Source: a virus
Length of the DNA: 24,229 bases
Virus record (IMG/VR): IMGVR_UViG_3300001828_000080
Location: 1 to 24,229 of that record
Reading direction: 5' to 3' (one strand)
Part shown: one piece after another, positions 243-19,300 of the stretch
How the letters are laid out: each line of letters starts with the position of its first letter
How positions within the stretch are numbered: position 1 is the stretch's first letter
The notes under the pieces: model-generated
What the model saw: only the letters and a program-made list of their open reading frames with translations
Told to the model about the DNA's origin: nothing
Database searches by the model: none
Position numbers and translations under genes: made by a program

Positions 243-3200
243 ATGCCATTAACACGTCTGGATAACCTTATCAGCTCTAAGACTGGTAAGTATCTTTATG
301 TTTCTCCTGATGACTTTAACGCTACAGATTCGTTATCAAACAGAGGTAACTCTCCTGTTACCCCATTTAAGAGCATCCAACGTGCGTTCTTAGAAATCGC
401 AAGATATTCATATACTCCTGGTCCATCTAATGATAGATTTGACCAGTTCAGTATTATGCTGATGCCTGGCATTCACTACATTGATAACCGTCCTGGTCTT
501 GTAGATACGAATGGTATTGATACTTTTGAGTTTAGTCAACTTCTAAACTCTTGGGGTGATGATCCCATTCTTGATATCTCTAATCCTGATAACGTCCTCT
601 ATAAGTTTAACAATACTGAGGGTGGTGCTATCATCCCTCGTGGTTCTTCACTTGTTGGTTATGACCTTCGTAGAACCACTGTTCGTCCTCTTTATGTTCC
701 CGATCCTGCCTCGGTAACTGTTCCTCGTTCTGCTATTTTCAACGTAACTGGTGGTTGCTACTTCTGGCAGTTCACCCTAAAGGATGGTCAGACAACTGCT
801 GAGTCTCCTCTATTCAACTCTGCTACTGGTAGTGGCGAAGTTTATTATGATCCTACCGACTTTACTAGAAAGGCAGCACCTAACTTCTCTCACCACAAAC
901 TAACAGTATTTGAATATGCTGACAAAGAAGAGTTGCAACTCTTCTACAGAAAGATTGCTAAGGCATTCTCTGCTTATCAACCTACCATTGATGATGTATC
1001 ACCCGAAGGAATTCCTGAGTTTGACTTCAACGTTCAAGAAAACAGAATCGTTGGTCCTCTATCTGACTCTCGTGTTATTGAGTCCCTCAAGTTTGATGAC
1101 ATTGCAGGAACTTCTAGTTGCAGTATCGAAGTAACAACGAAAGTTGACCACGGTTACTTTGCTGGTCAGTTTGTTGCTATTTCTGGAACTGAGATCGATG
1201 ATGAGATCGAAGGTTTCTGGCCAATTTATGATATTTCAGATGATCCACGTAAGTTTACTTATCGTGTTCCTTTTGTCACATCAGGTATCGGTCAAGGTCT
1301 GACAACAGGTGTTGAAGTTAGTGTAAATTCTTCTCCTGCACTAGGTCAGAACGCGCAAGTTCTCGCGGAAGTTGACTCTGTTGAGTCCGCATCTCCTTAT
1401 GTTTTCAACGTCTCAATCCGTTCGGTTTGGGGTATTTGCGGAATCTGGGCAAATGGTTTGAAAGCCACTGGATTCAAATCCATGGTTATCGCGCAGTATA
1501 CGGGTGTTTCGCTCCAGAGAGACGACAGAGCATTCATTCGCTACGACGAATACGCAAACACTTGGAACCAAGCATCACTAGTTGACGCATTTGCTACGGT
1601 TCCTTACCACGCGAAGGGTGATTCTTACTGGAAGGATGACTGGAGAAACTTCCACGTCCGCGCTTCGGAAGATGCATTTATCCAGAACGTTTCGATCTTC
1701 GCTGTTGGTTTCGCTGATCACTTCCTGATGGAGTCAGGTGGTGACATGTCGATCACTAACTCTAACTCAAACTTCGGTAACACCTCACTACACGCTATTG
1801 GTTTCAAAGGATTCTCCTTCAACCAAGATAAGGCAGGTTATATTACCGATATTATTCCTCCTCAACAAGTTGTTGAGAGTGAGACAAACAGAGAGAAAGT
1901 TCTCTACTATACTATTGATGTTCAGGGTTCAATTCAAGACTCTGCTAATCGCTCCAAGTTGTTCCTTGGTGGAACAGATCTAGACAATCCATTAAACCGT
2001 CCTGCTGCTACCATTGGTGGTTATAGAGTTGGTGGTAAGAGTGGCGACAAACTCTATGTCAAGCTTGACAAAAAGAACAATATTGATACTTTTGAGGCAA
2101 CACTAGAACCAACTGGTTTTGTCAAGTATATTGCTAAGGGTTCTATCCTCAACCCAAGCAACTTCACAATCAACAGTGTAAATGTAGACGCTGCTAATCT
2201 AATCGAAAGCAACCGTCGCATGATTCAGGAGGAAGTCTTCGGTTATATCTTGGAAAGATATCCTAGACTTCAGAACATTTCATACGTCAACCCTGATCTA
2301 AATCCTGCTGCTGGTCGTTATTTCGACGCTAAGAACCTAATCCAAGCAAATCGTCAGACTATCGTTGATAGTGCATTTGATGATATGGTTGAAACTTTTG
2401 GTGTTGCTAACATCGAAGGTGTTGCTGATGGTAAGTGCAAGCGTGACATTGGTTTCATTGTTGATGCTATCTCTGAAGACCTTAGAGATGGTGGCAACTT
2501 TAATACTATTGAAGCAACCAAGTTCTACTTCAATGGTGATGGATCACCACTACAGAATGGTCTTGTAGGAGAAGAACAGTATGCAGTCTTTGCTTTCAAT
2601 AGAGCTAGAGATTACTGTAAGAAAGCAGTTGCTAACCTACTTCCAGTTAAGGCAACTATCTACGATCCAGAGAGTGATAACCTCCTTGCTCCTTATGGAG
2701 TAATCTCTGGAAGCACTGGATCTGGTGCTTTGGGACTGGATAGTGAAGGTGTTACTGTTGACAAAGCTAACAAGCAAGATCCAGCTGGTCGTTACAAGGA
2801 TGCATACAACAGAATTACTGATCCTATCAACCGCGAGTTTATTCTTGACGCAGCACTAGCAGAGGTTGCTGTCTATCATCCAGACTTCTATATTCCTGGT
2901 GATACTCAGAGCAATGCTCAATCACGCTATGCTGATGCCTTCAGACTAATTCGCCGTAACAATAAAGAGATTACTGATAGAGCACTTGCCAAAATTGCTG
3001 CAGCACATCCTGATTTCTACTTCCCAGGTGATGCTCAGACAACCGCTGATTCTAGATTCTATGATTCCTATCGTCTAATCGAGCAGAATAAGGATCATAT
3101 TGTTGATGCCGCCCTTGCAGAAATTTCTATCTATCACCCAGATTTCTATATTCCTGGCAGTGATCAGACAACAGCACAGTCAAGATTCTTTGACTCATAT

Positions 3201-6200
3201 CGTTTGATCTATCAGAATAGAACTGAGATCATTAATACTGCATGGACCAATATGGTTGGTGCATATCCTGGTGTTGCTGGAACTGAAGTTAAGTGTAAGC
3301 GTGACCTAGGTTACTTTGTTGATGCTGTCTCCCTTGACGTATTCATGGGTGGCAATAAGTATTCTCGTAAGTTTATTTCTGAATACTTTGATGGCAATGG
3401 TCAGTTCTTAACCAATGGTCTTGATGGTGAGACCACTGAGAGCATTCGTGCTTTTGAGGAAGCAAGAGACCTCATGAAGCAGGCAATTACAAACCAGTTG
3501 TCTGTTCAAGATCTTGGTATTACTGGCGATCCAAACCCAGGTCAGAATCCACCTCCATATGGAACAGTTGGAGTTACGACAAATAATCTAAATCCTGCTT
3601 CTTGCGCTAATGTTCAGTCTGCTATCGATACTCTTGCGGGTATTGTAATTGGAGTTCTTCAACTACCAACTCCATCGTTGGCAACACTTCCTGCTGAGAC
3701 ACCTTATTCAATTGAAGCTGGTGAACTCAAGTGCCGCAGAGATATCGGTTACTTTGTTGATTCTGTTGCACTTGACCTCTTCATTCGTGGCAATGAGTAT
3801 TCATACAGATTTGCTGCTGAGTATTTCGACAACGCAGGTCTTCCAATCAGCAATGGTCTAGTTGGAGAAACTGCTGAGAGCGTTACTGCTTTCGAAAAAG
3901 CAAGAGACATGATGAAGTTGGCACTAACCAACTCTCTATATGAGAAGGATCTGACTATTACTCCTGATCCAAACACTGCTCCCGATAATCAAGATCCTAC
4001 ATCTTGTGCTGATGTTCAGGCAGCAGTTGATACTCTAACTGGTATTGTAACAACGATTATCAATGATGGTAACCTAACTTCTCTACCTATTGAACTCAAT
4101 AAGGGTTCTGCCCCTGCTGGCATGGCAAAGTGTGGTCGTGACATCGGATACTTCATCGATGCTATTTCTGTTGACTTGTTTACTGGTGGAAATGGACACA
4201 CTAGAAGCTTTATTGAGCAGTATTTTGATGGCAACACACCTATTTCTGGCGGTGTTCATAACACCCCAGAACAAAAAGCTGCTACGCTAACCGCATTCTC
4301 TGAAGTTTCTTCATTCATGCAGTCGGCAGTTACAAACCAACTCTATTATAGAGATCTAACTGTTACAGCAGATCCAAATGCTGGACCACTTGGCAATGAA
4401 GATCCTGCAAACTGTGCTAACGTTCGTAGTGCAATCTCCACTCTTGCATCATATGTAACTGATGCTGTTTCAGCGGAGAATCTAAACAACCTTCCTGCTC
4501 TGGTTGCTTCATCATTCCTCACTGGTGAGACTAAGTGCCGCAGAGATATTGGTTACATTGTTGACGCTGTTGCACAGGATCTCTGGTTTGGTGGTAATGA
4601 GTATACCATCGCAGCAACCAAGGAATACTTCAATAATAATGCTCTAATCGGTAACGGTGTTGATAACGAAGTTGGTCCTTCGGTCACAGCATTCAAACGT
4701 GCTGCTGATCTAATGAATCGTGCAGTCAACAACCAATACTACAGCCGCGACTTAACTCTAACCCTAGATCAGATTGGCGATCCAGCATTTGTTGCTGACA
4801 TTCACGCCGATGCATATAACCTTGTTCTAGACAACAAAGAGTTCATTGCTGCTGAAGCATATGAGCGTATGCTTGCTGCTTACCCAGCATATCAACCTTC
4901 TGCTGGTAACACCAAGCAGGACTGCCTAGACGACGTTTATGACGTTCTAGACGAGGTAATGTGGGATGTTAAGTTTGGTGGTAACTCCAAGACTTATGAC
5001 GCTGCTAACATCTACGTTACTAACGTTTTTGAAGGTCAACCAATTGATACCTTCCTAGATGCTGAGCGTGATGAAGCTGCTAAGGTATTCCTTGAGGCAA
5101 AGAACATTGCTATCCAGTGCCTTAGAAATGAAACTGTAAGCATATCTGCTGGCAATACTCTAACTCAAACGTTTGATCCTACTATTGTTGATGATTGGGA
5201 TGATGATTTTGCACCACTACCTAAGTGTGGTTCTGCCGCTGGTGCTGTAGATACTCTGTTTGATATCCTTCTTCAGGCAATCGGCAATGATGGTGGAGTT
5301 GGTAACCTCAACGGTATCACGAGAACTGCTCCTACACAACCAACTACTTATGAACTAGGTAATTGCTCTGATGTTCTAGCAACAATTGATACCCTCATCG
5401 GTATTGTTTGTGATGCTCTGACTGCTGGAAATCTAGATGATCTTCCATCACTAAGCAATGGTCTATGGGATTGTGCTAACGTTCGTTCTTCAATTGAGAA
5501 CCTCTTTGATATCGTCACAGATGCCGTTTCTAGCGGTTCTCTTGCAGGACTGCCCGTTGTTAACCGTGGCGACTTTATCGTCAATGCAGAGGCATCTAAG
5601 TGCTTTAGAGACGTTGCTTACATTGTTGATGCTATCGCTAATGACCTCAAGTATGGTGGTAATATCAATAGCGTTCAAGCAGGTGAAGCATACTTTGTTG
5701 GTGCTCAACTAGATTACATTGATGGTGAAAGAGACGAAACTGTTGCTGCTTGGAACTATGTCGGTCAAATGGCAATCGCAGCAATGCGTAACTTTGACTT
5801 CCTTGCATACAACTGCACAACTACTAGCAGCTCGACACTAACTTCCATTGTTGATGCTGTTGGAACTGGAACTAGAAACGTTCCTGCTTCTGCAATTATT
5901 GACGTTGGCGACAACAGAGGCATCTTGATCGGCATGAAGGTCGAAGAGTATGCTCTTTCTAATTACACCAACGGTCTATTAAGTGCTGGTGCTACACCAA
6001 TCACAACTAATATTCCATCTGATACTTATGTCAAGAGTCTAATTGATACAGATAAGATTGAAATTGGAGTTCTTGGATCCAGATTGGATACTGGTGTAAA
6101 TCAGAATGCTCAGCAGGATAGCACATCTACTAACCTATACTTCACTTTCGAAAAAGGTTCATGGGCAGATACACTTCCTGAAACTGTAATTGTTGGACCA

Positions 6201-9200
6201 GAAGGATCTGGTGAGGATGTAATTCAAGATACCACAGTTTCACCTTCTCAACGTGAGTGTGCTTCCACTGCTGCGGCAATCACTCAGCTTGTAGAGAACA
6301 TCACAACTATCATTGAAACTGGTCTAACCAAAGTTGTTAACAACATCACTGTTCCTACAGTTGATCGTGTTGAACCAACATTCAACACTGCTTTACTTGC
6401 ATCTAGAGCAACTGTATTTACTATTGATACAACTGGTTACGCTTCAACCAATGCACACGACTTCGAGACTGGAACTCCTGTTAGACTTGTTCCACGTCCT
6501 CGTTTTGATACCAATACTGGTAAGTATGTCGAAGTCGATAAGCGTCTCATCAGACTACCTAACGGTTTTGACACCAATACAACTTATTATGTAATTGCTC
6601 CTGGTAGAGCAACACAACCTGTTGATTATTCTGGAACAAGTTTCTTCGATGGAACACCTGGATCCATGAATAAGTTGATGCTTGCAACCTCTAAGGAGAA
6701 TGCAGCAGCAGGTATTTACATCTATGCATCTGAAACTGAAACAATCGATCAGAATATTGAGATTGACCTCTATCAGTTTGTCCTAGATGACAAGTATGAT
6801 CTCCACACGTATTCCTGTGGACTAGTCAACACTGTTGTTGGTGGTATTGAAACTGATATTGCACATATCTTTGACAAACCATCCAGCGCAACAACTTATC
6901 AGAAGGTATTCTTTAGAGAGATTGAAGGCAATGATCTACCAGATCTTGCTACCACATATGCCGCAGATCCAGCAGTTGCTACTACTACTGGTGTTAATGC
7001 AGGTAAGATCAATCCCAACAAGGAGTTCTTTGTTCGTTATCAAACTAGCAAAGTCTTCACAATTCACAAGACAGAAGCTGACGCTCTGAATAATGTAAAT
7101 CCAATTACATTTAACAACGCTAACGGTCCATTCAGAGTATTTGCTAACAAGAAGCGCAGTCCAATGCGCTTTGATCCTACATTTAATGGCGATGATACCG
7201 ATAACGGTAAGTGGTATCTACAGTGTAAGGATAGAAGCACTGAGGATCAAAATACTGTATGGCGTGAGATCTTCTATAGAATTCACGAACCAGACTATAG
7301 CAGCAAACCAACCACAACTGATACATGGTATGAGCGTATTGCTGATACTAGAGATGCAAACGAAAGAACTTACAAACTTCGTTATGTCATTCCTAAGTAT
7401 ATCGAGAACGCTAGAGATCCTATTAATGGATTTGTCATTAAGACAAGAACTGACGACACTCGTAAGTTAGTTCCTCAGAAACTACTACTTAAGCCTGTAT
7501 CTGGTAACGTATATGGTGCTCGTTTTGAAAACCCACAGCAACCAGGAGAATTCATTGGATTCACCCAAGAACAGTTTGATGCTGATGATACTCTGAACGA
7601 ACTTTCTGCATATGATCCATACAGAAGACCTCTAACTGGTGAAGATCAAGACATCGATTACAGAGCAATTGCTAGATTTAATTCTGGTGTTGCTGCTACA
7701 ATTCAGTCTGGTCGTTATGTAGAAGATGCTTTAGATTCAGCAATTAACTACTTGGAAATCACTGTATTCGATCTTGGTATCGATACTAAGAACTTCCCTG
7801 GACTAAGAAATGAGATTTTAACAACTGTCAAGATCTCTGCTCCTCAAGGTGGTGCTTTTGTTGCTAACAAGACACAGAGTATCGTATCTAACTCTGTTGG
7901 ATTTGGTGGTAATTCTTCTGGAACTGCATATATTCATGGATACTTTAGTGTTGGTGGTGACCACTATCTAATCATCAAGGGTATTAGTGGTGCTAAGGGA
8001 ACTGCCTCCCTAGAGTATAGTGAGTTCCAAGGCACACGATTCACTCAGGGTAATGTCTTTGCTGATATGCTGGAAGACCAGGATATGGGCAAATCGCTAC
8101 CTCTGAAGACTCATATCAGAAAAAATTTCCCAGAGTATTATTACAAGCAAAACGGTTCTAACGTTTATACTATTACTCCTGGTGATCGTATTCAAGATGA
8201 TGCTGGTATCGAATACTATGTTGCTAGTGTAGAAGATACTGGAGTCATTGAAGATACATTCTACATCTTTGATAGTGCAGAGCTTCAGAAGAGAATCCCA
8301 GGTCAGCAAGATGGTATCTACTATTTAACTGCTCTTCGTGGTAATATCTCTCCATATCCTCAAGGCGCTGGTGTTTCTACCAACTTCCAGAAGTTTAAGT
8401 TCTCTCAACCTGTAGGTAAACTTTATCCTCTCAACTACAGAAACGATCCTCTCTGGTTCCAAAAGTCTGGAACCACGAACGAAGAGAAGAACTACTACTC
8501 GCAGTTAATTGATCCACCTCAAGCATTCTCTGCTGCTGATAACTACATCCATGGTAAGGTTACTGTCAACGATACTAAGCACTCTGTAACTAGAGAGCTT
8601 ATGAGCGATTTAACTGCTCAACCAGCATTTGTTCAGAATACTTACACTGCTGACAATGAGATCAAGGCACAACTAGGTAATGCAACTTCTGGTTCAGAAG
8701 ATCGTCGTATTCCTATTGCTGGTGATAGCACAGTTGTTTCTGATCAGCGTTACTACGTTGAACTTCGTAGACCATCTATCGCTCGTGCTGGTAACCATAC
8801 GTTTGAATATCTTGGTTTCGGTCCTGGTAACTACTCAACAGGTCTTCCTGCCCGTCAGGAGATCGTTCTAGAACCAGAAGAGGACTTCTACGCACAGTCC
8901 AAGAAGCAAGATGCTGGTATCGTATTCTATACTGGTATCAACTCTCAGGGTGACCTCTACATCGGTAACAGAAGAATCAACGCTATCACTGGCGAAGAAG
9001 ACTTCATCGATAGAGCAGTTCTTGCTGATGATGGAGACGAGGATGATGTAATCGGACAACTCGTTACTACTTTCGACACTCCAGTTACATTTAACCAGAA
9101 CATCACAATTGTTGGTGGTCCAGATGGTGAACTAGTTAATAACATCAACTCACCTGTTCTAGTTAATGTTCCTGACAATCAACTAAGGAACCTTGGAGCA

Positions 9201-12200
9201 CCTTTAGTAGTTTACTCACTAGTAAGTTCTACTGATCCTATTAGTGGTCTTCCACAAGACGCTTCTCTTGATAGAGAAGCATTCTTCCCCAACACATCTG
9301 GTGATATCCGTCTAGGTAAGAACCGTGTTGATGCTGCTGTCTTTGGATTTAATCCAAGAGGCGAGGGTCAAAATTATATGATTCAAACTCACGCCCCTGG
9401 CGGTGTTGGATCAAATATTTGGCCAAATCAAGATAGTTTGGTTTCTCAGGGTGGATCTAGACTTGCAGCAGATCAATATATCACTTACACCAATGTTCTT
9501 CCTTCTACAGGAGACATGGCACTCAAGGGTAGTGCAGTTAATAAGAATGGTTCACTTGGTTGGATCTTTGCTAACATCTACACAGTTATCCCTAACAACG
9601 TAATTTCTTCCTTGGAAGTGATCGTTGATCAGAGTGTAAACGTTGGATCATTTACATTTATTGACAGCAACAGCAACCCAGTTTCTGTTGGTTCTCTAAA
9701 CATTAAGTCTGGTTCTGAGATTAGACTACAGAATATTAATTACAGTGGTGTTCTTAATGGAACATGGCCAGTTCTTAATACTCAGGCATATCCATTCTCT
9801 CCAACCAGCAACGTTGTATACTTCCAGATCACTCCAAGAACTGGATCTCCAATCGGCGCATTTAACGAGACTTGGAGCACTGGTATTGTTAACGCTCCAA
9901 CAAATGCATCTCCAAATGCTCTTGTTTCGTTCTCTGTATCGAATTGGAAGGAATTTGGTGTTCTAGGTGCTGAAGCACTCAGAACTGAAACCGAGACATG
10001 GGGTGACTTTAAACTTGGTATCAACACCATCAACAGAGCAACGCATGATGCATATAAGGATGCATTTGTAGAGGTTCAGAACACTGATCCTCGTGCTAAC
10101 CTAGACGTTGTTGGTAACGCATATATCAGCGGTCGTAAGACAACTGATTGGCTTTCAAATGATGAGTATGCTGGTCGTAACAAGAATAGAATTTCTGATG
10201 CTCTTGTTGTTGGTTGGTTGGATGAAATTCCATCACCAAATAGTGAGGACATTGATGATGTAACTGCTGCTTTCCGTGTTTCTACCGAAACCGTAGCAAT
10301 TACAGAGTCTGGTAGAGGTAATAATGAGAACAAGGTTGGTATTAACGTCAACAACAGTGAACTTGATAGAGCATTAGTTGTCAAGGGCGATGCAAGATTC
10401 ACTGAGGATGTTCGCTTTGAGCGTGACATTGAGATCCATGGAGATGGAACTCTAACAGAAGTAAGAACTGATACAACATCTGGAATTTTCAATCTAATTA
10501 CAGATGCTGGATTTGTTGGAACTCTCAACTTTGCGAATAGCGCAAACATTGCTAACCTAGTTAACGGTGCTGAGACAGTAAGATTTGCTGATGTTACAAC
10601 AAACGCGCAAACAATTGCTATTGGTAACAACTCAAGCACTAACACATTTAGAATTGGTAATGCTGTTGCTGGAGATCAGTTCTTCTACATCGGTAACCTT
10701 TCAGATCACAGCAATTTCTGGGTTGGAAACACTCCTGATGGTGCTACTGTTGCTGCTGATGGATCTATTACAACACCAGGAAGTGGAATTAGTAAGATTG
10801 TAATTGGTGGTGCTTTTGGTAACACAAACCAAGACCAGTCATTTGTAAGAGTTGGAACACAAAATCTACGTGTTGATGGTGATATGTGGCTCGGATTCCG
10901 TCGCCCAGGCGGATCTGCAGAACTAAGATCACAAGCTTCACTAATTAGTTTCTTCTCTAACTCTGGTGGTCCTTCGACTATTAACTTCGGTCTCAATGCT
11001 TCTGAAGTTAACATTGCAGGTCAGGGTGGAACAACCACAATTAATAACTCACTCCATGTTGTTGCTTCTGCTAAGTTTGATGGTAACATCTTACTTTGCG
11101 GTGGTCTTGCTTCCTTCTCCTTTATCGGTGACAGAGCACAAATGGGTTCGACCATCTCTGCTCATGGTGACGGTGTGGAACCAGATGGATCATTCACTAA
11201 GAATGTTGATATTCTCAATGTCTTAGTTCTTGGTCCAACTGATGATGGATACAACGCAGTTGATACTGCTGGTTCTGGTCAGTGGGGTGGAACTGCATTC
11301 CAACAGGAAGTAACAACTATTGGTGGAACACCTGAAGTTGAACCTCAGGATCTTCCTACCCTAACAGGTGATGAGTATTATCTACCAATCAAGAATTCAC
11401 CCAACAAGCAAAATGGTGATCCATATCTAACAACTGGTGATTATATCATCGTTGATAGTGCAGTTTCTGCAAGCGGACATCCTGAGATTGTTCAAATTCT
11501 TGAGGTAATGAGAGGCAATGTTGGTCCTTTCTATCTAAGAGTTAAGCGTCAACCATTTGGTAACTTTGGTGGTGTTCTAACTAATCACCCAGATACAACT
11601 CCAATCTACAAAGTAAATGTTCAGTTTGACGCTACTTGGTTGGAGATTGGTGTTGACGGTGCTGGAGCGCAAGATAACTTCTATCTTGCTGAGTTTGGTG
11701 GAAATCTAACCACAAACGATTATGTTATCCTCAGCAGAAATGATTCCACTGGAACTCCAGAATATGTTGCTGTAAACACCCCAATCTCTCAAGAAGTTCA
11801 GAAGTTTAGAATTAATGATGGTGAAAATTGTGATGATGAATCTGGTGATGTATTTGTCGTTAACTCTGTAACTGGTGATACTATCATCAAGGGTGGCACT
11901 ACTATTAACAATACATTGACCATCTCTGGTGGATGTGGAACAATCAGTAACATTGCATTCTCTGCAAATTCTGTAGTTAATACTAAAGTTCTTACCAATG
12001 TTGTTGTATCAACACCAGATAAAACAATCAGTGATATTCAAATTGGCGATGTTATTGAGATTGTTACCAATGAAGCTTCACTGCAACCTCTATTTGACAC
12101 GCATGTTGCGGCAGTTGATGCCACAAACAACAGAATCTTCCTTGACAAACCAATGGCAGGTGGTGGTTCTGCCAATGTAAACTTCCAGGCTCGTAGAAAC

Positions 12201-13826
12201 GAAAAACTTCTCCTAACAAATGGAGAAAGCGTTCCTACATTTGAAGTAGATACTTGCACAGGCACCACACACCTTGGATCACATTATGGTAGAATTGAAG
12301 TTGAATTCGGTGAGACTGGTGGATATGCAAATAACATCAGTGATACTGATGATATTGTAACCGCATTCGATAATGGTGAGATTGAATACGCATACAGTTT
12401 CTACTATGATCCTAAGATTCTTTCTGATGGTGGTCCAAATACAACAATCAGAGCAACTGTTGCTGGTTCTTCAAGTCAGATTCAGATTCCTGTTCAATCT
12501 CTAGGTGTTGGAGATGGTGCATTTGCAATTGGTGATTATGTCTTCGTTGGAGATCCTACTGCTGCTTCTACTGGAATCGGAACATTCCAGATTGGATACA
12601 TCAATGACATCGTTGATAATGATCCAGCAAATCTAACTATTGTTATTCAGTCTGCTGGTGATGGTTTGATTACTAACGAACCATTTACTCCTGGAGATGA
12701 TGTATATACTGTTGGTAATGTCGTTAGAAGAGTAATCAAGCATACAGAATTTGCTAGAATTATTGATATTGAGACAAGAACCAGAACAGTTCAAGGTGCT
12801 CAGAGCAATTATTGCTCAGTAATTCTAGACAAAGGATATATTGCACAGCAAAAACTAGATTATCTTGGTTGGTTGGTCTTTGTCAACTCTGAGCATGAAG
12901 CACAGACATTTGCTGCTGTCAAGGGAAGACTCAAGGGTGTAGTCCACACTGCCGTCATGGATGAGCAGAGAAAGGATGGTGCTATTGAGTTCAGAAGTGG
13001 AACAGCAAACATTGCTTCCAATATCCACATGATTGGTGGAAGCCTTGAGATCTATGATTCTGTCAATCAAACGAGACTATTTGGTTTCGTCAACGATGAC
13101 GGACACGCAGATCACCAGGGTCTACTATTCTGGGATGCTGGTGTTGTTGCTCGTGGTGACTTCTATCTCTTCAGTTCTTCTGATCCAGAGAACATTATTG
13201 AGAACCCAGATAGTGATACTCCATCGTTCTTCGTTGATAACCTAGGTAATGTTGGTGCTGAAACTACTCTCACGGTTACTGGTAATGCAATTGCAACACC
13301 ATCTACGACTCTGGAGCAATTATCTGTTCAGAATCTAGGACCTAATGGATCTAAGAAGTTTGCAGTCAAGCAAGACAACTCAATCGACTCGTTTGGTTAT
13401 ACTAACTTCTTTACTTCAAGTGGTGGTTCTCATACTAGATACATCTCTTCGGCATCTGCTGAAGAAGATCTAACTCTACTTCCCAACATTATTTACATGG
13501 TAAATACTACAGCACAATCAACGCTAGTAGTTACACTGCCAACTTCACCACAAACTGGAGATGTTGTCAGACTAATTGATGTCAGTGGTAATCTAAGCTA
13601 CAATACTTCACTTGTTGTTAGAACTGCTGAATCATCTGGAACTAAGATTCAGGGAGATAATACTGGAACACTTCTTGGTGGTAGATTAACACCATATCCT
13701 TCTGGAGAAATGGTTGTTCAAACACCTAATGCAGCGTTCAGTCTTGTATATCTCGGATCTACTGATAGCAATGGTCAAGTAGGTATACCATCCGCCGTTC
13801 AAGGATGGTGGTTAATGGAGGTCTAA
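243..13826 (+). CDS. Giant virion structural protein, probable tail fibre (4527 aa)
   Basis: The N-terminus (DDFNATDS, NRGNSP, TPFKSIQRA) is the conserved start of large cyanomyovirus structural proteins. Residues 1 to about 570 look beta-rich, with a pectate-lyase-like stretch near 480-525. Residues 649 to about 2028 are an array of helical, cysteine-containing repeats, annotated separately. The rest is beta-rich, including IGN/VGN strand repeats near 3456-3530. The C-terminal domain (about 4394-4527) ends in GWWLMEV, like distal domains of phage fibres. No signal peptide or transmembrane segment is evident, as expected for a virion protein assembled in the cytoplasm. The start lies 41 nt after the late promoter box; AGGG at 228-231 is a weak, distant ribosome site. 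The frame is uninterrupted over 13.6 kb. The structural assignment is firm; the position in the virion (long fibre, baseplate spike or whisker) is inference. Confidence 0.9.
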   Translation: MPLTRLDNLISSKTGKYLYVSPDDFNATDSLSNRGNSPVTPFKSIQRAFLEIARYSYTPGPSNDRFDQFSIMLMPGIHYIDNRPGLVDTNGIDTFEFSQLLNSWGDDPILDISNPDNVLYKFNNTEGGAIIPRGSSLVGYDLRRTTVRPLYVPDPASVTVPRSAIFNVTGGCYFWQFTLKDGQTTAESPLFNSATGSGEVYYDPTDFTRKAAPNFSHHKLTVFEYADKEELQLFYRKIAKAFSAYQPTIDDVSPEGIPEFDFNVQENRIVGPLSDSRVIESLKFDDIAGTSSCSIEVTTKVDHGYFAGQFVAISGTEIDDEIEGFWPIYDISDDPRKFTYRVPFVTSGIGQGLTTGVEVSVNSSPALGQNAQVLAEVDSVESASPYVFNVSIRSVWGICGIWANGLKATGFKSMVIAQYTGVSLQRDDRAFIRYDEYANTWNQASLVDAFATVPYHAKGDSYWKDDWRNFHVRASEDAFIQNVSIFAVGFADHFLMESGGDMSITNSNSNFGNTSLHAIGFKGFSFNQDKAGYITDIIPPQQVVESETNREKVLYYTIDVQGSIQDSANRSKLFLGGTDLDNPLNRPAATIGGYRVGGKSGDKLYVKLDKKNNIDTFEATLEPTGFVKYIAKGSILNPSNFTINSVNVDAANLIESNRRMIQEEVFGYILERYPRLQNISYVNPDLNPAAGRYFDAKNLIQANRQTIVDSAFDDMVETFGVANIEGVADGKCKRDIGFIVDAISEDLRDGGNFNTIEATKFYFNGDGSPLQNGLVGEEQYAVFAFNRARDYCKKAVANLLPVKATIYDPESDNLLAPYGVISGSTGSGALGLDSEGVTVDKANKQDPAGRYKDAYNRITDPINREFILDAALAEVAVYHPDFYIPGDTQSNAQSRYADAFRLIRRNNKEITDRALAKIAAAHPDFYFPGDAQTTADSRFYDSYRLIEQNKDHIVDAALAEISIYHPDFYIPGSDQTTAQSRFFDSYRLIYQNRTEIINTAWTNMVGAYPGVAGTEVKCKRDLGYFVDAVSLDVFMGGNKYSRKFISEYFDGNGQFLTNGLDGETTESIRAFEEARDLMKQAITNQLSVQDLGITGDPNPGQNPPPYGTVGVTTNNLNPASCANVQSAIDTLAGIVIGVLQLPTPSLATLPAETPYSIEAGELKCRRDIGYFVDSVALDLFIRGNEYSYRFAAEYFDNAGLPISNGLVGETAESVTAFEKARDMMKLALTNSLYEKDLTITPDPNTAPDNQDPTSCADVQAAVDTLTGIVTTIINDGNLTSLPIELNKGSAPAGMAKCGRDIGYFIDAISVDLFTGGNGHTRSFIEQYFDGNTPISGGVHNTPEQKAATLTAFSEVSSFMQSAVTNQLYYRDLTVTADPNAGPLGNEDPANCANVRSAISTLASYVTDAVSAENLNNLPALVASSFLTGETKCRRDIGYIVDAVAQDLWFGGNEYTIAATKEYFNNNALIGNGVDNEVGPSVTAFKRAADLMNRAVNNQYYSRDLTLTLDQIGDPAFVADIHADAYNLVLDNKEFIAAEAYERMLAAYPAYQPSAGNTKQDCLDDVYDVLDEVMWDVKFGGNSKTYDAANIYVTNVFEGQPIDTFLDAERDEAAKVFLEAKNIAIQCLRNETVSISAGNTLTQTFDPTIVDDWDDDFAPLPKCGSAAGAVDTLFDILLQAIGNDGGVGNLNGITRTAPTQPTTYELGNCSDVLATIDTLIGIVCDALTAGNLDDLPSLSNGLWDCANVRSSIENLFDIVTDAVSSGSLAGLPVVNRGDFIVNAEASKCFRDVAYIVDAIANDLKYGGNINSVQAGEAYFVGAQLDYIDGERDETVAAWNYVGQMAIAAMRNFDFLAYNCTTTSSSTLTSIVDAVGTGTRNVPASAIIDVGDNRGILIGMKVEEYALSNYTNGLLSAGATPITTNIPSDTYVKSLIDTDKIEIGVLGSRLDTGVNQNAQQDSTSTNLYFTFEKGSWADTLPETVIVGPEGSGEDVIQDTTVSPSQRECASTAAAITQLVENITTIIETGLTKVVNNITVPTVDRVEPTFNTALLASRATVFTIDTTGYASTNAHDFETGTPVRLVPRPRFDTNTGKYVEVDKRLIRLPNGFDTNTTYYVIAPGRATQPVDYSGTSFFDGTPGSMNKLMLATSKENAAAGIYIYASETETIDQNIEIDLYQFVLDDKYDLHTYSCGLVNTVVGGIETDIAHIFDKPSSATTYQKVFFREIEGNDLPDLATTYAADPAVATTTGVNAGKINPNKEFFVRYQTSKVFTIHKTEADALNNVNPITFNNANGPFRVFANKKRSPMRFDPTFNGDDTDNGKWYLQCKDRSTEDQNTVWREIFYRIHEPDYSSKPTTTDTWYERIADTRDANERTYKLRYVIPKYIENARDPINGFVIKTRTDDTRKLVPQKLLLKPVSGNVYGARFENPQQPGEFIGFTQEQFDADDTLNELSAYDPYRRPLTGEDQDIDYRAIARFNSGVAATIQSGRYVEDALDSAINYLEITVFDLGIDTKNFPGLRNEILTTVKISAPQGGAFVANKTQSIVSNSVGFGGNSSGTAYIHGYFSVGGDHYLIIKGISGAKGTASLEYSEFQGTRFTQGNVFADMLEDQDMGKSLPLKTHIRKNFPEYYYKQNGSNVYTITPGDRIQDDAGIEYYVASVEDTGVIEDTFYIFDSAELQKRIPGQQDGIYYLTALRGNISPYPQGAGVSTNFQKFKFSQPVGKLYPLNYRNDPLWFQKSGTTNEEKNYYSQLIDPPQAFSAADNYIHGKVTVNDTKHSVTRELMSDLTAQPAFVQNTYTADNEIKAQLGNATSGSEDRRIPIAGDSTVVSDQRYYVELRRPSIARAGNHTFEYLGFGPGNYSTGLPARQEIVLEPEEDFYAQSKKQDAGIVFYTGINSQGDLYIGNRRINAITGEEDFIDRAVLADDGDEDDVIGQLVTTFDTPVTFNQNITIVGGPDGELVNNINSPVLVNVPDNQLRNLGAPLVVYSLVSSTDPISGLPQDASLDREAFFPNTSGDIRLGKNRVDAAVFGFNPRGEGQNYMIQTHAPGGVGSNIWPNQDSLVSQGGSRLAADQYITYTNVLPSTGDMALKGSAVNKNGSLGWIFANIYTVIPNNVISSLEVIVDQSVNVGSFTFIDSNSNPVSVGSLNIKSGSEIRLQNINYSGVLNGTWPVLNTQAYPFSPTSNVVYFQITPRTGSPIGAFNETWSTGIVNAPTNASPNALVSFSVSNWKEFGVLGAEALRTETETWGDFKLGINTINRATHDAYKDAFVEVQNTDPRANLDVVGNAYISGRKTTDWLSNDEYAGRNKNRISDALVVGWLDEIPSPNSEDIDDVTAAFRVSTETVAITESGRGNNENKVGINVNNSELDRALVVKGDARFTEDVRFERDIEIHGDGTLTEVRTDTTSGIFNLITDAGFVGTLNFANSANIANLVNGAETVRFADVTTNAQTIAIGNNSSTNTFRIGNAVAGDQFFYIGNLSDHSNFWVGNTPDGATVAADGSITTPGSGISKIVIGGAFGNTNQDQSFVRVGTQNLRVDGDMWLGFRRPGGSAELRSQASLISFFSNSGGPSTINFGLNASEVNIAGQGGTTTINNSLHVVASAKFDGNILLCGGLASFSFIGDRAQMGSTISAHGDGVEPDGSFTKNVDILNVLVLGPTDDGYNAVDTAGSGQWGGTAFQQEVTTIGGTPEVEPQDLPTLTGDEYYLPIKNSPNKQNGDPYLTTGDYIIVDSAVSASGHPEIVQILEVMRGNVGPFYLRVKRQPFGNFGGVLTNHPDTTPIYKVNVQFDATWLEIGVDGAGAQDNFYLAEFGGNLTTNDYVILSRNDSTGTPEYVAVNTPISQEVQKFRINDGENCDDESGDVFVVNSVTGDTIIKGGTTINNTLTISGGCGTISNIAFSANSVVNTKVLTNVVVSTPDKTISDIQIGDVIEIVTNEASLQPLFDTHVAAVDATNNRIFLDKPMAGGGSANVNFQARRNEKLLLTNGESVPTFEVDTCTGTTHLGSHYGRIEVEFGETGGYANNISDTDDIVTAFDNGEIEYAYSFYYDPKILSDGGPNTTIRATVAGSSSQIQIPVQSLGVGDGAFAIGDYVFVGDPTAASTGIGTFQIGYINDIVDNDPANLTIVIQSAGDGLITNEPFTPGDDVYTVGNVVRRVIKHTEFARIIDIETRTRTVQGAQSNYCSVILDKGYIAQQKLDYLGWLVFVNSEHEAQTFAAVKGRLKGVVHTAVMDEQRKDGAIEFRSGTANIASNIHMIGGSLEIYDSVNQTRLFGFVNDDGHADHQGLLFWDAGVVARGDFYLFSSSDPENIIENPDSDTPSFFVDNLGNVGAETTLTVTGNAIATPSTTLEQLSVQNLGPNGSKKFAVKQDNSIDSFGYTNFFTSSGGSHTRYISSASAEEDLTLLPNIIYMVNTTAQSTLVVTLPTSPQTGDVVRLIDVSGNLSYNTSLVVRTAESSGTKIQGDNTGTLLGGRLTPYPSGEMVVQTPNAAFSLVYLGSTDSNGQVGIPSAVQGWWLMEV
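2187..6330 (+). repeat. Array of KC-x-RD and CANV-type modules in the giant protein
   Basis: This is a protein-level repeat array at about residues 649-2028. A module beginning KC-x-RD-IGY-x-VDA, with a later GGN and a tract ending near AxxN, starts at residues 731, 1017, 1163, 1296 and 1431, with diverged copies near 1560 (DCLDDVYDVLDEV) and at 1786 (KCFRDVAYIVDA). Core spacing is 129-146 residues. A second motif, CANVQSAIDTLAGIV-like, closes several units and recurs six or seven times, the last at residue 2006. Each well-kept unit (1017, 1163, 1296) holds one Cys in each motif. At the DNA level the copies differ strongly, so they are old duplications kept at the protein level. I recall similar KCKRDIGY modules in other marine phage structural proteins; their function is unknown to me. 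Confidence 0.85.
2799..3281 (+). repeat. Tandem 43-45-residue helical repeats in the giant protein
   Basis: Four consecutive units of the form DxYRLI-xxN-xxI-xDxALAxI-xxxHPDFYxPG begin at residues 853, 898, 941 and 984 (spacing 45, 43, 43). Related single units begin at 649, 695 and 1523, in each case before a KC-x-RD module. The HPDFY-x-PG linker is nearly invariant in the first three units and degenerates to AYPG in the fourth. The nucleotide sequence varies mostly at synonymous positions. The pattern suggests a helical repeat spacer that can grow or shrink by recombination. Confidence 0.85.
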
Positions 13827-13829
13827 TAG

Positions 13830-15077
13830 ATGGCAAGTTATAACAGAATCAGGGCATCGAAACAGTCCCCTATCGGGACAATCATGCCCTGGGGAGGTTC
13901 TTCTAGTAACTCAAAACTAGATGAAGATGCTATTCCAACTGGGTGGATTGTTTGTAGGGGACAAACTCTTTTAGCAAGAGATTATCCTCTATTAGCACAA
14001 CTTCTTGGCAATACTTATGGTCCTTTTCAGGAACCTGGAGGACCACCTGTAGGTATTCAAAATGCATATCCAAGTTATGATGAAAATGACTTGTTTACTC
14101 TGCCTAATTTAAATAATACTGGCATGGTTGATCTTGAGGGATCAAGACTAGAACCAGAAACACAGTTGATTGTCGGTCAATATATTACAGAAAATGGAGC
14201 AGATGCCGCTCCGCCAAACATTGCGTTATCATATATTGACGTTAATTTTTCTATTGAATCCGATTCAAATCTGAGTGGTAAGATTACAGGGATTACAATT
14301 GAAGATCCTGCATATTTTGCTACTGGTAGAATTATTCCTAGAAAATTGGGCATTGACCACACTCCTGGTCATAGTCACCCGCAACCAGAAGATGCTGATG
14401 CAAAGTATCCTTCTGCAGTTCTTGGTGGTGGTTATGTCGGACTATTTGAAGCTGGTAACTATGATGTTCAAGACTCTGAATATACAACTGTTAGTGCTGA
14501 ACCAATCAATCCATCGGAAGATAGTGCAGATAGATTCAACCCAGGAACTGCACTTGTAACTTGGTATGATGAGTCGGCATTTACCCTCCCTACAATGAAC
14601 CAGTTTAGGGATTTTACTGCTGCTCCAGCAAATGTTCCTGCTATCCCAGGAAGTTCTAGAGCTGTTAGTGGATATGGTAATACTATTGATTATGAAGATC
14701 CAAACACTTGTATTATTAACGTTCAGGCACCTGCTGTTTCTTCTCCATTCCCACCATCTGGAACTTATCAAGGTTTAAAAAACTTTTATAGTTCTGGAAC
14801 AGTTGCTTCTTCTAGAGGTGGAAGCACTTTATATCCATATCCAACTACTTTAAACCACAATGCTGATGCGTGGAACTCAGAGTCTCTCGCATCTCACAAT
14901 CACTTCACAATTGACCTTGCTATGACCAAGGGACAGATGAGAATTCCTGGCACAATTCTCATAAATAATATGACGACAGGAACCATTGCTCCTGTTAGTG
15001 TTGATAAGGCATTAAGTGTTCAGATCAATGCAAATACACCTTCAATTACAACTCTGATTATAATGAGGGCATACTAA
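13830..15077 (+). CDS. Tail-collar-domain fibre protein (415 aa)
   Basis: The N-terminal phage tail collar domain is clear: PIGTIMPWGG at residues 14-23, then a stretch ending GWIVCRGQ (39-45), DYPLLAQLLGNTYG (51-64) and LPNL at 91-94. Two HxH motifs follow, H181/H183 (GHSHPQ) and H356/H358 (SHNHF). In T4 gp12 and gp37 such motifs bind metal ions along the fibre axis, so a trimeric fibre with internal metal sites is likely. The start is supported by GGAGG at 13817-13821, 8 nt upstream, and lies 3 nt after the giant gene's stop. The leader MASYNRIRASK resembles the starts of the next two proteins. It is probably a short fibre or distal fibre part; its partner is not visible from sequence. Confidence 0.88.
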   Translation: MASYNRIRASKQSPIGTIMPWGGSSSNSKLDEDAIPTGWIVCRGQTLLARDYPLLAQLLGNTYGPFQEPGGPPVGIQNAYPSYDENDLFTLPNLNNTGMVDLEGSRLEPETQLIVGQYITENGADAAPPNIALSYIDVNFSIESDSNLSGKITGITIEDPAYFATGRIIPRKLGIDHTPGHSHPQPEDADAKYPSAVLGGGYVGLFEAGNYDVQDSEYTTVSAEPINPSEDSADRFNPGTALVTWYDESAFTLPTMNQFRDFTAAPANVPAIPGSSRAVSGYGNTIDYEDPNTCIINVQAPAVSSPFPPSGTYQGLKNFYSSGTVASSRGGSTLYPYPTTLNHNADAWNSESLASHNHFTIDLAMTKGQMRIPGTILINNMTTGTIAPVSVDKALSVQINANTPSITTLIIMRAY

Positions 15078-16382
15078 ATGGCAGTATTTTATAACAGAGA
15101 AAAATCTAAGATTGGAACAACTACTGGTTCTATTATCAACTGGTCTAGACAATTGACCTCTAATGATCCAGAAGATACCCAAACAAGAGACCAGCTTCCC
15201 GCTGGTTATCTTAGATGTGATGGTTCAATTTATGCTGCTGAAGTTTTCCCAGCACTAGCAGAAGTTCTTGGAACAGGAACTTTATCGAGGTTTAGAAAAC
15301 CAAATCAGACTTTATTGGATAATCAATTCCAGTTACCAGATTTCGGATCAAAAAAGATTCGTGCTTCAAGTGGAGCAAACTTGGGTGACTATGTTGATCT
15401 TTACATTCAAGACGACAACGATAATACTATTACAAAATCTGGTGTTGGTTTAGAAGTTCAGAGTAATATTGGAACACAATATGAGATCTTATATCAAGGA
15501 TCGTTCTTCTTGCCTTCTCAATCAATTCCTATTACAGGTGAACCAGGATTTACGAGATCTACTGGTAACTATACAGAAACATCTGATGTGCTATCTAATG
15601 GATTTATTCCACACGCACACTTCCATGATGGTAACAGAACTAGAGTTGCATCTTCAACAGGAAATGAATATGCTGCATTTGGTAGAAACTCTTACACTAG
15701 AAAATCTACACTATGTGTAGTTGACTGGGCAAATAATACAAGACAAGACCTTTGCTATTATAATGCTACTAGAATTAGATTATCTTCTGTAGTTCAGCAA
15801 GAGTCAAATGCTGCAGGATGTCAAAGAACTTACTATGCTGGATGTTTTAGTGGTTGTGAATTTACAACTTCATATGAATGTTTGATTCCAGAAGGTTATA
15901 CTTGTGGATTCCCAATTTGGTCTGGTAGTGGGGGTGGATGTCCTAATGCTGGATCACAAGAAACTGCTACATGTGGAAACATTCAATATCAAGGAACAGT
16001 TGCTGTTAAGTGTCAATCAGTTGGTTTCCCTGGTTGTGCTATTGGTGGATACGTCGCACAACCAAGAACTGGTCCTGTTACACTATCTTCCAACTACAGT
16101 GATGCTAACTTGCCTTTTGACTCATTTAAAGACTCTGATTCAAATTCTTTTGCTGCAATTAACAACGTAACAAATCAAGTAGAAGCAACTGGTAACGATG
16201 GATCTCACAGACACTTTGTTAATTTTACTGCACAACCACATACATACCAAGTGAATACTTCGCCTAGTTTTATTCCTTCATCAAATTTAGTTTCTACGAT
16301 TAGTATTAACGTTAACGAAGAGAATAAAGCTGACCAGTTTATCCAACCATATCTCGTTCAAGAGTTTCTTATCAAATACTAA
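15078..16382 (+). CDS. Tail-collar-domain fibre protein with cysteine-rich insert (434 aa)
   Basis: A paralogue of its two neighbours. It has an N-terminal YNREKSK leader, a collar-like domain with GYLRCDG (43-49), FPALAEVLG (57-65) and LPDF (86-89), then an HxHxH motif (H179, H181, H183) and HRH (H377, H379). Between these lies a segment with eleven cysteines (213-320), which neither neighbour has. GAGGG-like GAGGG at 15065-15069 supports the ATG, which directly follows the previous stop; the last base of its own stop is the first base of the next ATG. The likely role is a receptor-binding or fibre-tip protein of the same particle structure. The metal-binding reading of the histidines is inferred from T4 fibres. 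Confidence 0.85.
   Translation: MAVFYNREKSKIGTTTGSIINWSRQLTSNDPEDTQTRDQLPAGYLRCDGSIYAAEVFPALAEVLGTGTLSRFRKPNQTLLDNQFQLPDFGSKKIRASSGANLGDYVDLYIQDDNDNTITKSGVGLEVQSNIGTQYEILYQGSFFLPSQSIPITGEPGFTRSTGNYTETSDVLSNGFIPHAHFHDGNRTRVASSTGNEYAAFGRNSYTRKSTLCVVDWANNTRQDLCYYNATRIRLSSVVQQESNAAGCQRTYYAGCFSGCEFTTSYECLIPEGYTCGFPIWSGSGGGCPNAGSQETATCGNIQYQGTVAVKCQSVGFPGCAIGGYVAQPRTGPVTLSSNYSDANLPFDSFKDSDSNSFAAINNVTNQVEATGNDGSHRHFVNFTAQPHTYQVNTSPSFIPSSNLVSTISINVNEENKADQFIQPYLVQEFLIKY
15714..16037 (+). other. Cysteine-rich domain within the 434-aa fibre protein
   Basis: Residues 213-320 contain Cys at 213, 226, 248, 256, 260, 268, 276, 288, 299, 312 and 320; the remainder of the protein has only one other (C47). 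Spacing is irregular (CFSGC, then larger loops), unlike a classic zinc ribbon. The segment is rich in Gly, Ser, Tyr and Gln. An odd number of cysteines could form five disulfides plus one free thiol or interchain bond once the virion is extracellular, or could bind metal. Confidence 0.75.
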
Positions 16383-19300
16383 TGACAGTCTCCTACAGAA
16401 ATCGATTTACATCGTATAAACAAGAAACTGACGGACAGTATGCTCCCGTTGGATCGATTGTTTCTGTCTTGGTTGATAATTTTTCCGATGCAGCACAGTC
16501 TCCTGAATATGGATATAAAAATTATCTTTATTGTGATGGCAGAGAATTAAACATTAGAGATTATCCTTTCTTATATCGTTCGGTTGGAAATACATACGGT
16601 GGATCTGCTTCAGTAGAAAAAACTCAACCAACACAAGCTGGTGGTGTAACTAAATTATATTGGATTAACGGTAAAGCATTTTTTAATTTACTTCAAGATG
16701 GATCTGTTGCTGGTGGTCTTAAACTTCCATATCCATATGGTGTAAATTTTAGAATTCTTGATTCTGGAAATGGGAGAGGTGCATTGGATGCAACTAATTT
16801 CCCATACGACACATTTTTCTCTACTCAAGCACCAACTGAAAATGTTTCATCTCAATTGCCAGGAAATGGAACTGAGTATGCATATGAAATTGTATTCCCA
16901 ACAACAGTAACACCAACTCCTGGTGCAACTATTGTTTTTAGTAGTGGAACTCATCCAAATATTTCTTTTAGAAAGAACTTTAGTGAGGATGATTATCCAT
17001 TTCAAGTAGGAACTTTTAGATTACCCGATTATAGAGATAAAGTTATTGTTGGATATGGAGCAGTAGATGGTGAAGGATCACCAACGGTTGAAAATGCTCT
17101 TATCAATAATGTTGGACAAAGTGGTGGTAGATGGTATATTTCTCAAGATGATCTTTTAGATGGTGGTGTGTTCTTTACAGTTGGAAATGTAAGGACAACT
17201 GGATATACAAATATTAACTCGGATGTTTTTACATTTATCACTGGATCTGTAACCTATCAATTAGGACCAATTGATGATTATATTTTCAGCAGACCAGTAG
17301 AACACTTCCACTATATTCTTTCTTCGGAACCAGATGAAGGATTAGAAGCTGAATTTGGATCTACTCCATCAGATCAATATGCTGTTCTTTATAACAAATC
17401 GAGAGCAAATATTTCTCCATTTGAACCACAAGGATCTGGTGGATTGGCATTGGGACACTCGCATGGCATTTCTGCAGAACCATTAAATGATCCACGAATG
17501 GCAACATATGGAAACGTTGGTGGTATTGGTGGTGAAGATCCTAATGTTCCTATCGACGTTAACTATGATGTTAATGATAGCATTTTAACTAATACTGCCG
17601 TTTATAGTGGTGTATCATTAGAACTATATGGCAGTGGTTCTGGAGAAATTGGTGGATTTGCTGCTCCTGCTGTTACTGATAAAGGAGACAGATATCTAGC
17701 ATTTGGATATGGAAGCTCTGGAACTTTTGGCAACACGTTACAGAGTAGTAGATCAGTAACTTACACTATGGATTTTACTGGATATACTCAGTTGTATATC
17801 TTTGCTATCTGTGGTAACGATAGCAATGGTGGAGAAAGACCAAACAATGTTGGTGAAGGACTTCAAGTTACTATTGGTGGCGCGACTCAGCAAATTATTC
17901 CATCAGGTCAGGATTTTAATGCTCAAAATGGTATTGAAGCTGGAACAGGATTTGATGCATATGATGCTGTTTATGCTTATTGGACGCAGAGTTTCATAAA
18001 CATTCCTCCTGGCAATCAGACGGCAGGACAAACAGTTACAATCTCACAAACTTGTTCCAATAGTGGTAGTGGAAATGAACTACAGTCTGGTAATGAAGCA
18101 AGTGCAAATGCTCTTGACATGTTTGGCATTCAAGCAATTGGATTGCGTGGTGGAATTCCAGAAGTGCCACCAGATCCAAATGGAACTTATCCAGTAACTG
18201 GTTCTCCTCTTGTTACTATTACAAGTCTTGTTTATGATTCTGCTAATGGATATGTTGTAGCAGGAACGGCAGCACCACATGCTTTTGACTCGGGAATGAT
18301 TGTTAATATCAGTGGTGCAACCCCAGCAGAGTTTAATGGTGCCGTTGAAGTATTGCCTGATCAGTTGAGTAGTGTTAATTTTACATATATTCCTGAAACT
18401 CCTCCATCTCCAACAGTTGCAACGGGAACAATTACAGCACGTATTGCTTCTGGTAGTTTTAGTGATGTCACAGAGACTCCAGCACCTAAAGTATATGTTA
18501 TTAATAACAATACTGTAGTTGGTGGTAAACCAGATGTTTTTGAAGTTCCTGGAACAGGTGTTATTTTCTATGATGAATATATTACTAGTCCAAATACAAT
18601 CAACGCAAGTCCTGTCACAACAGGTCCTGGAGAATCTTTCTCTCAAATTACTGTAAACTTAGTTGCTCCTGGAGGCGGTGGAGCTGGTAGTTTTGGTGAT
18701 GGTGGTGATGCTGGATATGCTTATGCTACTTTTAACTGGAAAGGCACCAACAAAACCATCTATGCTTACGGTGGAGATGGAGGACAAAGAGGAAATAATG
18801 GTGGTGCTGGCGGATCAGGTGGAACATTTTTAATTCCTGCTGATTTACTCGTAGATCCAGATTTTCAGTATTCTGCTGTTGCTGGTATTGATGGAGCTAC
18901 TGGTGGTGGCGCTGGTAGTGACACTGCTTCCACTAGTGGTGGTGGTGCTGACAATGCATTTGGAACAGGTGGTAATGGAAACTCGACTTCATTCTTGACA
19001 GAAGAAGCAGGAGCATGGGAAACTTTTACTACAAGTGGAACATGGTCTGCTCCAAGTCCATCAACTGGAGAAACTTCTAGAAACGTTCAAGTTCAAATTG
19101 CTGGTGGAGGTGGAGGTGGTGGTAATGGTAATGCCAACTCTGGTTGTGGTGGTGGTGCCATTGGTGGAACAGGAGGTGGTGGTGCTCTATTGACTGCCAC
19201 ATTGAATCAACAACCATCGACACTTAGTTACACTCTTGGCGCAGGCGGTGGTGTTGGTTTCAACAATAAAGATGGCAACACTGGAACTGGTAGTGAAGCT

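Follow-up and report, generated by a model that had tools for sequence, protein, structure and literature searches.

A repeat array within a giant cyanophage tail-fibre gene

We analysed the linear viral record IMGVR_UViG_3300001828_000080 from IMG/VR over its whole length of 24,229 bases (the window), focusing on an array of seven phycobiliprotein-like modules within a giant tail-fibre gene. The gene is a single open reading frame (ORF) at 243–13826 on the plus strand, which matched PHROG 4527 (short tail fibre) over the full length of the profile (E=0, 4663 bits). Downstream lie three tail-collar genes as well as the gene for a tail assembly chaperone, an order resembling that of Synechococcus phage S-RSM4, in which the orthologous fibre gene precedes more short-fibre and structural genes along with a possible dioxygenase. 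Over the array, S-RSM4 is also the isolate nearest in sequence (74 % identity; SRSM4_214, ‘putative short tail fibre’). Profile match and gene context thus identify the window gene as encoding a T4-like cyanophage short tail fibre.

ORF prediction and a motif scan located three interleaved repeat types in the 4527-residue product, where the initial annotation had placed them. The KC-x-RD motif occurs with its lysine at residues 731, 1017, 1163, 1296, 1431 and 1786 (nucleotides 2433, 3291, 3729, 4128, 4533 and 5598), and a seventh, divergent copy reads DCLDD (Cys1561). The HPDFYxPG motif is found at residues 879, 922 and 965 with a period of 43 residues, whilst CANV-type motifs have their cysteines at 1121, 1255, 1391 and 1744, with weaker ones at 1662 and 1708. 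The recurrent order of unit then KC module near residues 695/731, 984/1017 and 1523/1560 was as first described. Pairwise identity among the 72-residue KC modules is 25–60 % in protein and 40–67 % in DNA; the copies are old, and their conservation as protein, together with the module comparison and the structural model, bears out the earlier proposals of composite duplication and selection on the fold. The features are as follows.

243–13826 (+): giant short-tail-fibre gene carrying the array, 4527 residues (one open frame; PHROG 4527; similarity to S-RSM4)
2316–2642 (+): phycobiliprotein-like module 1, in which KC-x-RD follows helices A-B; codon for the bilin-site Cys732 at 2436 (profile match, CxRD)
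2787–2903 (+): A-B helix unit 1, HPDFY at residue 879, lacking a KC half (motif; model helices)
2904–3032 (+): A-B helix unit 2, HPDFY at residue 922 (motif; two model helices; PF00502 stretch)
3033–3161 (+): A-B helix unit 3, HPDFY at residue 965 (motif; two helices in the model)
3174–3500 (+): phycobiliprotein-like module 2, Cys1018 codon at 3294 (AlphaFold2 single domain; Foldseek)
3603–3635 (+): CANVQSAIDTL helix, Cys1121 (motif; model helix 257–275; Cys in at least 90 % of the rows of alignment A2)
3597–3938 (+): module 3, Cys1164 codon at 3732 (motif, model, profile match)
4005–4037 (+): CADVQAAVDTL helix, Cys1255 (motif, alignment conservation, model)
3999–4346 (+): module 4, Cys1297 codon at 4131 (motif, model, profile; top phmmer match to PDB phycocyanin alpha)
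4413–4445 (+): CANVRSAISTL helix, Cys1391 (motif, model)
4407–4742 (+): module 5, Cys1432 codon at 4536 (motif, model, profile match)
4803–5138 (+): module 6, divergent CLDD form, Cys1561 codon at 4923 (profile match with DCLDDVYDVL)
5466–5810 (+): module 7, CANV Cys1744, bilin-site Cys1787 codon at 5601 (motif, profile match)

The repeated unit and the KC module are consecutive pieces of one domain, comprising helices A-B and then helix E onward, and not independent motifs. The unit follows the pattern AAxxLxxNxxxIVxxAxxxxxxxxP, which matches helices A and B, and the three HPDFY units ahead of module 2 appear to be A-B halves that have no KC counterpart. In the single-domain model described below the CANV helix takes the position of the last helix; it may equally be the end of one domain or a stand-in for helices A-B of the next module.

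Homology and predicted fold of the modules

A Pfam scan of the whole window protein returned Phycobilisome (PF00502) with an E-value of 5e-8 and 33.4 bits (cut-off 22.2), the best stretch being residues 893–935 against profile positions 28–70, in A-B unit 2. This match was treated only as a lead, because its score was summed over weak repeats. In a single-sequence search of the PDB, 21 of the 22 matches were phycocyanin alpha chains (E 0.002 or weaker). Profile A1, built from 42 modules from 13 sources, gave 34 matches in the PDB, all to bilin proteins at E 0.001 or weaker, whilst profile A4 (76 diverse modules; hmmsearch) reached 6.9e-7, and the 60 matches listed of 153 were all phycobiliproteins. 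The A4 alignment placed the phage cysteine on phycocyanin alpha-Cys84 with Arg86 and Asp87 in register, and began at phycobiliprotein residue 39–40. PF00502 likewise matched 56 of 60 homologous arrays (best E 1.5e-18), with no other family found in more than one array; as single 112-residue modules, 10 of 76 matched PF00502 and one weakly matched another family. The NCBIfam phycocyanin alpha model TIGR01338 matched at E 1e-9 and 38.6 bits, short of the CpcA equivalog cut-off of 269, which may be why such genes have been annotated only as tail proteins.

Structure prediction pointed to the same family. An AlphaFold2 model of residues 866–1500 (60-row alignment) had a predicted local distance difference test score (pLDDT) of 88 and a predicted template-modelling score (pTM) of 0.87, and was helical throughout save for a small hairpin in each module. 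Its high-probability Foldseek matches listed from the PDB were phycobiliproteins or their relatives, with phycobiliprotein E-values above 0.1, an ambiguity attributable to the multi-domain query and resolved with a single domain. For the latter (window 3150–3677, 89-row alignment; pLDDT 88.1, pTM 0.86) the top 50 PDB matches were all phycobiliproteins, at probability 1.00 and nearly full length, with a best E of 3e-4 and template-modelling (TM) scores of the predicted model of about 0.6–0.7 (extremes 0.54 and 0.76). Confident matches to this fold in a viral structure library were confined to structural proteins of Synechococcus phages, to uncultured Caudovirales phages and to unnamed records.

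Homology and predicted fold we regard as secure, and on these two grounds the KC module with its preceding unit is almost certainly a phycobiliprotein-like (bilin-binding globin) domain. The initial annotation named no described structure for the array; the PF00502 matches across arrays, the PDB profile searches and Foldseek instead assign it the phycobiliprotein fold, and the profile match is to an already characterised domain. The array therefore places a known superfamily where it was not expected, as repeats within a phage tail fibre that have kept an intact bilin site.

The modules share with phycobiliproteins (C-phycocyanin alpha CpcA and phycoerythrin beta CpeB) helices A-B, E, F', G and the last helix, a full-length fold match and the alignment of KC-x-RD-IGY with Cys84/Arg86/Asp87. 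They differ in occurring in tandem, fused inside a tail fibre of 4.5 thousand residues, in the absence of the N-terminal helices X-Y, in a hairpin after F', in an identity of about 15 % and in that their bilin is inferred. Because the profile match starts at residue 39–40 and the model at helix A, we did not file the module as an antenna subunit, and that light-harvesting label, for which helices X-Y and the CpcA equivalog score were lacking, was dropped. A second comparison, made by description only, is with the bilin biosynthesis-associated globins (BBAGs; PMC10151467), which are non-antenna bilin-binding globins, some with CXRD, tied to bilin-making genes; unlike the modules they are single-domain, cellular and non-structural proteins encoded beside heme oxygenase and bilin reductase genes. 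A query with modules 2 and 3 found no relatives in cellular genomes, and in the open-licence literature we found no published report of a phycobiliprotein-like domain in cyanophage tail proteins.

Equating the CANV cysteine with the beta-Cys153 site had looked appealing on inspection but was rejected for now, as profile A7 matched only Csn2 in the PDB (E 0.7). The full-length Foldseek cover would still permit a beta-type second-bilin position for this segment.

Conservation, copy number and association with cpeT

The modules carry the CxRD motif at the start of helix E, and CXRD is the bilin-attachment motif (PMC10151467). A profile search over phage and environmental loci yielded 526 non-identical modules in which the motif was covered. 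The cysteine was present in 524 (99.6 %), the aspartate in 525 (99.8 %) and the arginine in 443 (84 %), whilst most other columns varied; these figures are partly biased, as the profile contains the cysteine and a pattern that includes RD was used to collect part of the loci. Copies of only 20–30 % identity in S-RIM2, P-HM2, P-TIM40 and S-SSM4 still keep both cysteine and aspartate.

Relatives of the gene contain 1–12 modules each, with seven in close orthologues; counted by phage, S-PM2 has about ten, P-HM2 five and P-SSP7 none. The recovery of so many non-identical modules in related phages, together with this variation in number, indicates that the array is not a chance arrangement. The same array is present in orthologous or related genes, among them SRSM4_214 of S-RSM4 and those for the T4-GC 734/830 proteins of Syn1 and S-PM2, all annotated as tail fibre or hypothetical only, with the domain unnamed. 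Modules also occur in phages of Prochlorococcus (P-HM2, P-RSM6 and P-TIM40). The module-bearing structural genes of P-RSM6, P-TIM40 and S-SSM4 span 6935–8573 codons, among the longest open frames in this analysis, and in P-HM2, S-SZBM1 and S-H38 modules were additionally seen within genes annotated as gp7-like baseplate wedge.

The gene was repeatedly found near cpeT (PF06206), which encodes a T-type bilin lyase, an accessory protein that is a genomic partner in many phages and not a relative of the module. In S-RSM4, S-WAM2 and Syn1 cpeT lies a short way ahead of the giant gene on its upstream side, as it does by coordinates in ACG-2014e, ACG-2014h, S-CAM1, S-H9-2 and S-PM2. Among environmental contigs, 18 of the 48 module loci with enough sequence had cpeT at most 5 kb upstream, mostly at 0.16–1.9 kb, and many of the remaining loci appear to hold other module genes. 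PF06206 was detected in 19 of 23 module phages plus P-SSM4, and all 20 PF06206-positive genomes bear modules. Six genomes without PF06206 were also without modules, namely P-SSP7, HTVC008M, T4 and three (P-SSM2, S-SM2 and S-SSM7) chosen because they are listed as cpeT-negative in PMC3037559. A gp23-based co-occurrence survey in IMG/VR was dropped, the contigs being too short for absence to be read from them.

Some details of these genes stand apart. The Syn1 record annotates cpeT (Syn1_028; PF06206 at 1.5e-35), whilst Table 3 of PMC3037559 lists it as absent. CpeT frames are about 175–190 residues long in most phages where CpeT neighbours the module gene; in S-RIM2, ACG-2014b, S-RIM8, Syn30 and S-RIM12 the frame is 149–160 residues and matches PF06206 in two halves, with profile positions of about 80–105 missing. 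No link of modules to pebS or ho1 was supported: P-SSM2 and S-SSM7 carry both genes (PMC3037559) without modules, so that these genes serve another use at least there, and a bilin reductase was present in only 4 of 23 module phages.

In the window itself, each of three successive genes at 13830–20872 encodes a phage tail-collar domain (PF07484). The last of them (1496 residues) has a long glycine-rich stretch near 18.7–19.9 kb where GC content rises to 50 % and GC skew to 0.31. A 2-oxoglutarate-Fe(II) oxygenase (PF13640) and the tail assembly chaperone (PF16778) follow at 20878–22319, the former recalling the possible dioxygenase of S-RSM4. The tail block ends at 23053–24099 with a 348-residue protein that has only a weak match to a PHROG of unknown function (phrog_21315, E 9e-6).

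Candidate bilin attachment and its alternatives

We consider it likely, with a probability of roughly 0.55, that the modules hold a covalent bilin on the CxRD cysteine. Bilin attachment is favoured because the attachment cysteine and the bilin-contacting aspartate are kept better than structural residues, and because a lyase gene co-travels with the modules; non-antenna globins of the same clade as phycobiliproteins are known to bind bilins (PMC10151467). A linear tetrapyrrole would be bound to the cysteine of each module as at phycocyanin alpha-Cys84. It could come from the host or from phage ho1/pebS/pcyA, its delivery helped by the phage T-type lyase CpeT, a step to which we give somewhat less than an even chance. 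The bilin would then stabilize the domains, so that this stretch of the fibre would be a string of globins bearing pigment.

Several observations weigh against bilin attachment. Aspartate replaces the arginine in 58 of 526 modules (about 11 %), and both the single-domain model and the profile indicate that helices X-Y, which serve alpha-beta pairing, are missing, with a hairpin in place of helix F. Profile support for the CANV motif as a T-type lyase target (beta-Cys153/155, at the start of helix H) failed, and the site for which T-type lyases are known is beta-Cys153 (PMC10452541) and not Cys84. Four module phages (DSL-LC03, S-SSM4, S-SSM2 and S-B43) gave no PF06206 match, and a CpeS-type lyase was found in none of 29 phages; replacement of CpeT by an S-type lyase in the four exceptions was accordingly rejected. 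The association of cpeT with modules among 27 cyanomyoviruses reached a Fisher value of only 0.012 in a sample that is small, biased and neither random nor phylogenetically independent, and conserved synteny by itself could suffice for the proximity of the two genes. Finally, the pebS/ho1 carriers P-SSM2 and S-SSM7 had no detected modules.

The best-surviving alternative, with a substantial minority chance, is that the phage took up a host phycobiliprotein gene whose compact helical fold serves, without bilin, as a duplicable block of fibre stalk and baseplate wedge, its cysteine and aspartate acting in packing or as a helix cap. The missing helices X-Y, the hairpin in place of helix F, the spacer-like variation in copy number and the presence of modules in phages with no detected T- or S-type lyase would all fit such a scaffold, yet it must contend with a bilin site that is the most invariant part of the module while structural positions drift, and with cpeT being confined to module-bearing genomes in our sample. 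The same evidence bears on the initial suggestion of a length-adjustable helical segment, which stands as far as the helical model and variable copy number go; as a mere spacer it is insufficient, because the bilin-attachment cysteine and aspartate are the two most conserved residues.

There is a slight chance that disulphides lock the fibre, the KC cysteine pairing with the CANV cysteine or across neighbouring chains. Fibres act outside the cell and at least 90 % of close arrays retain the CANV cysteine, but a regular-expression scan found 220 of 518 modules with no downstream CANV-type cysteine that nonetheless keep the KC cysteine, and disulphides leave the invariant aspartate and the exact CxRD match to phycocyanin unexplained. 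Slighter still is the prospect of molecular mimicry, whereby the domains attach to host phycobilisome components or lyases, or titrate them, late in infection and have no virion role. The closest sequence is phycocyanin alpha and the hosts are mostly Synechococcus with phycobilisomes, whereas the genes that hold the modules are annotated as structural (tail fibre or gp7-like wedge) and P-HM2, P-RSM6 and P-TIM40 infect Prochlorococcus, which is without phycobilisomes (PMC2984593). A chance or convergent likeness of a helical repeat, to which the weak single-sequence E-values, the ease with which helical folds match and the array-level Foldseek result might appeal, is negligible given that profile, Pfam, NCBIfam and fold searches independently converge on a single family and the functional motif lines up in register.

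If the modules do bind bilin, a further and weaker step is that light absorbed by the pigment shifts fibre or baseplate conformation and so renders adsorption light-dependent. Light sensing is speculation, and tuning of adsorption by bilins has in our view a small chance. A light-gated role is suggested by three phages only, P-HM2, P-SSP7 and S-PM2, the last reportedly the phage of the light-dependent adsorption study of Jia et al. in 2010. In darkness P-HM2 fails to adsorb whilst P-SSP7 adsorbs (PMC7112961); the former has modules and the latter none, a contrast that is no more than a lead, because P-SSP7 is a podovirus that differs in everything else. Weak gene expression of P-HM2 after a dark shift at infection (PMC5082946) counts against the overall reading.

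The role of phage cpeT has been called unresolved and that of pcyA/pebS a mystery (PMC3037559), a question sharpest for phages of Prochlorococcus (PMC3037559, PMC2984593). If bilin binding is true, the module protein, present in every cpeT-positive genome examined, would be a direct candidate acceptor for the cyanophage bilin genes, and virions may carry a light-absorbing pigment; pigmented fibres would give light-dependent adsorption a physical basis. In the fullest version, to which we give no better odds than to light-tuned adsorption, many T4-like cyanophage virions would be chromoproteins, whose CpeT-loaded CxRD bilins in fibres and baseplate wedges sense light and permit adsorption; such virions, if real, would explain both cyanophage cpeT and light-dependent adsorption. 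Even without bilin, a host light-harvesting fold has been domesticated and amplified as a building block of the virion.

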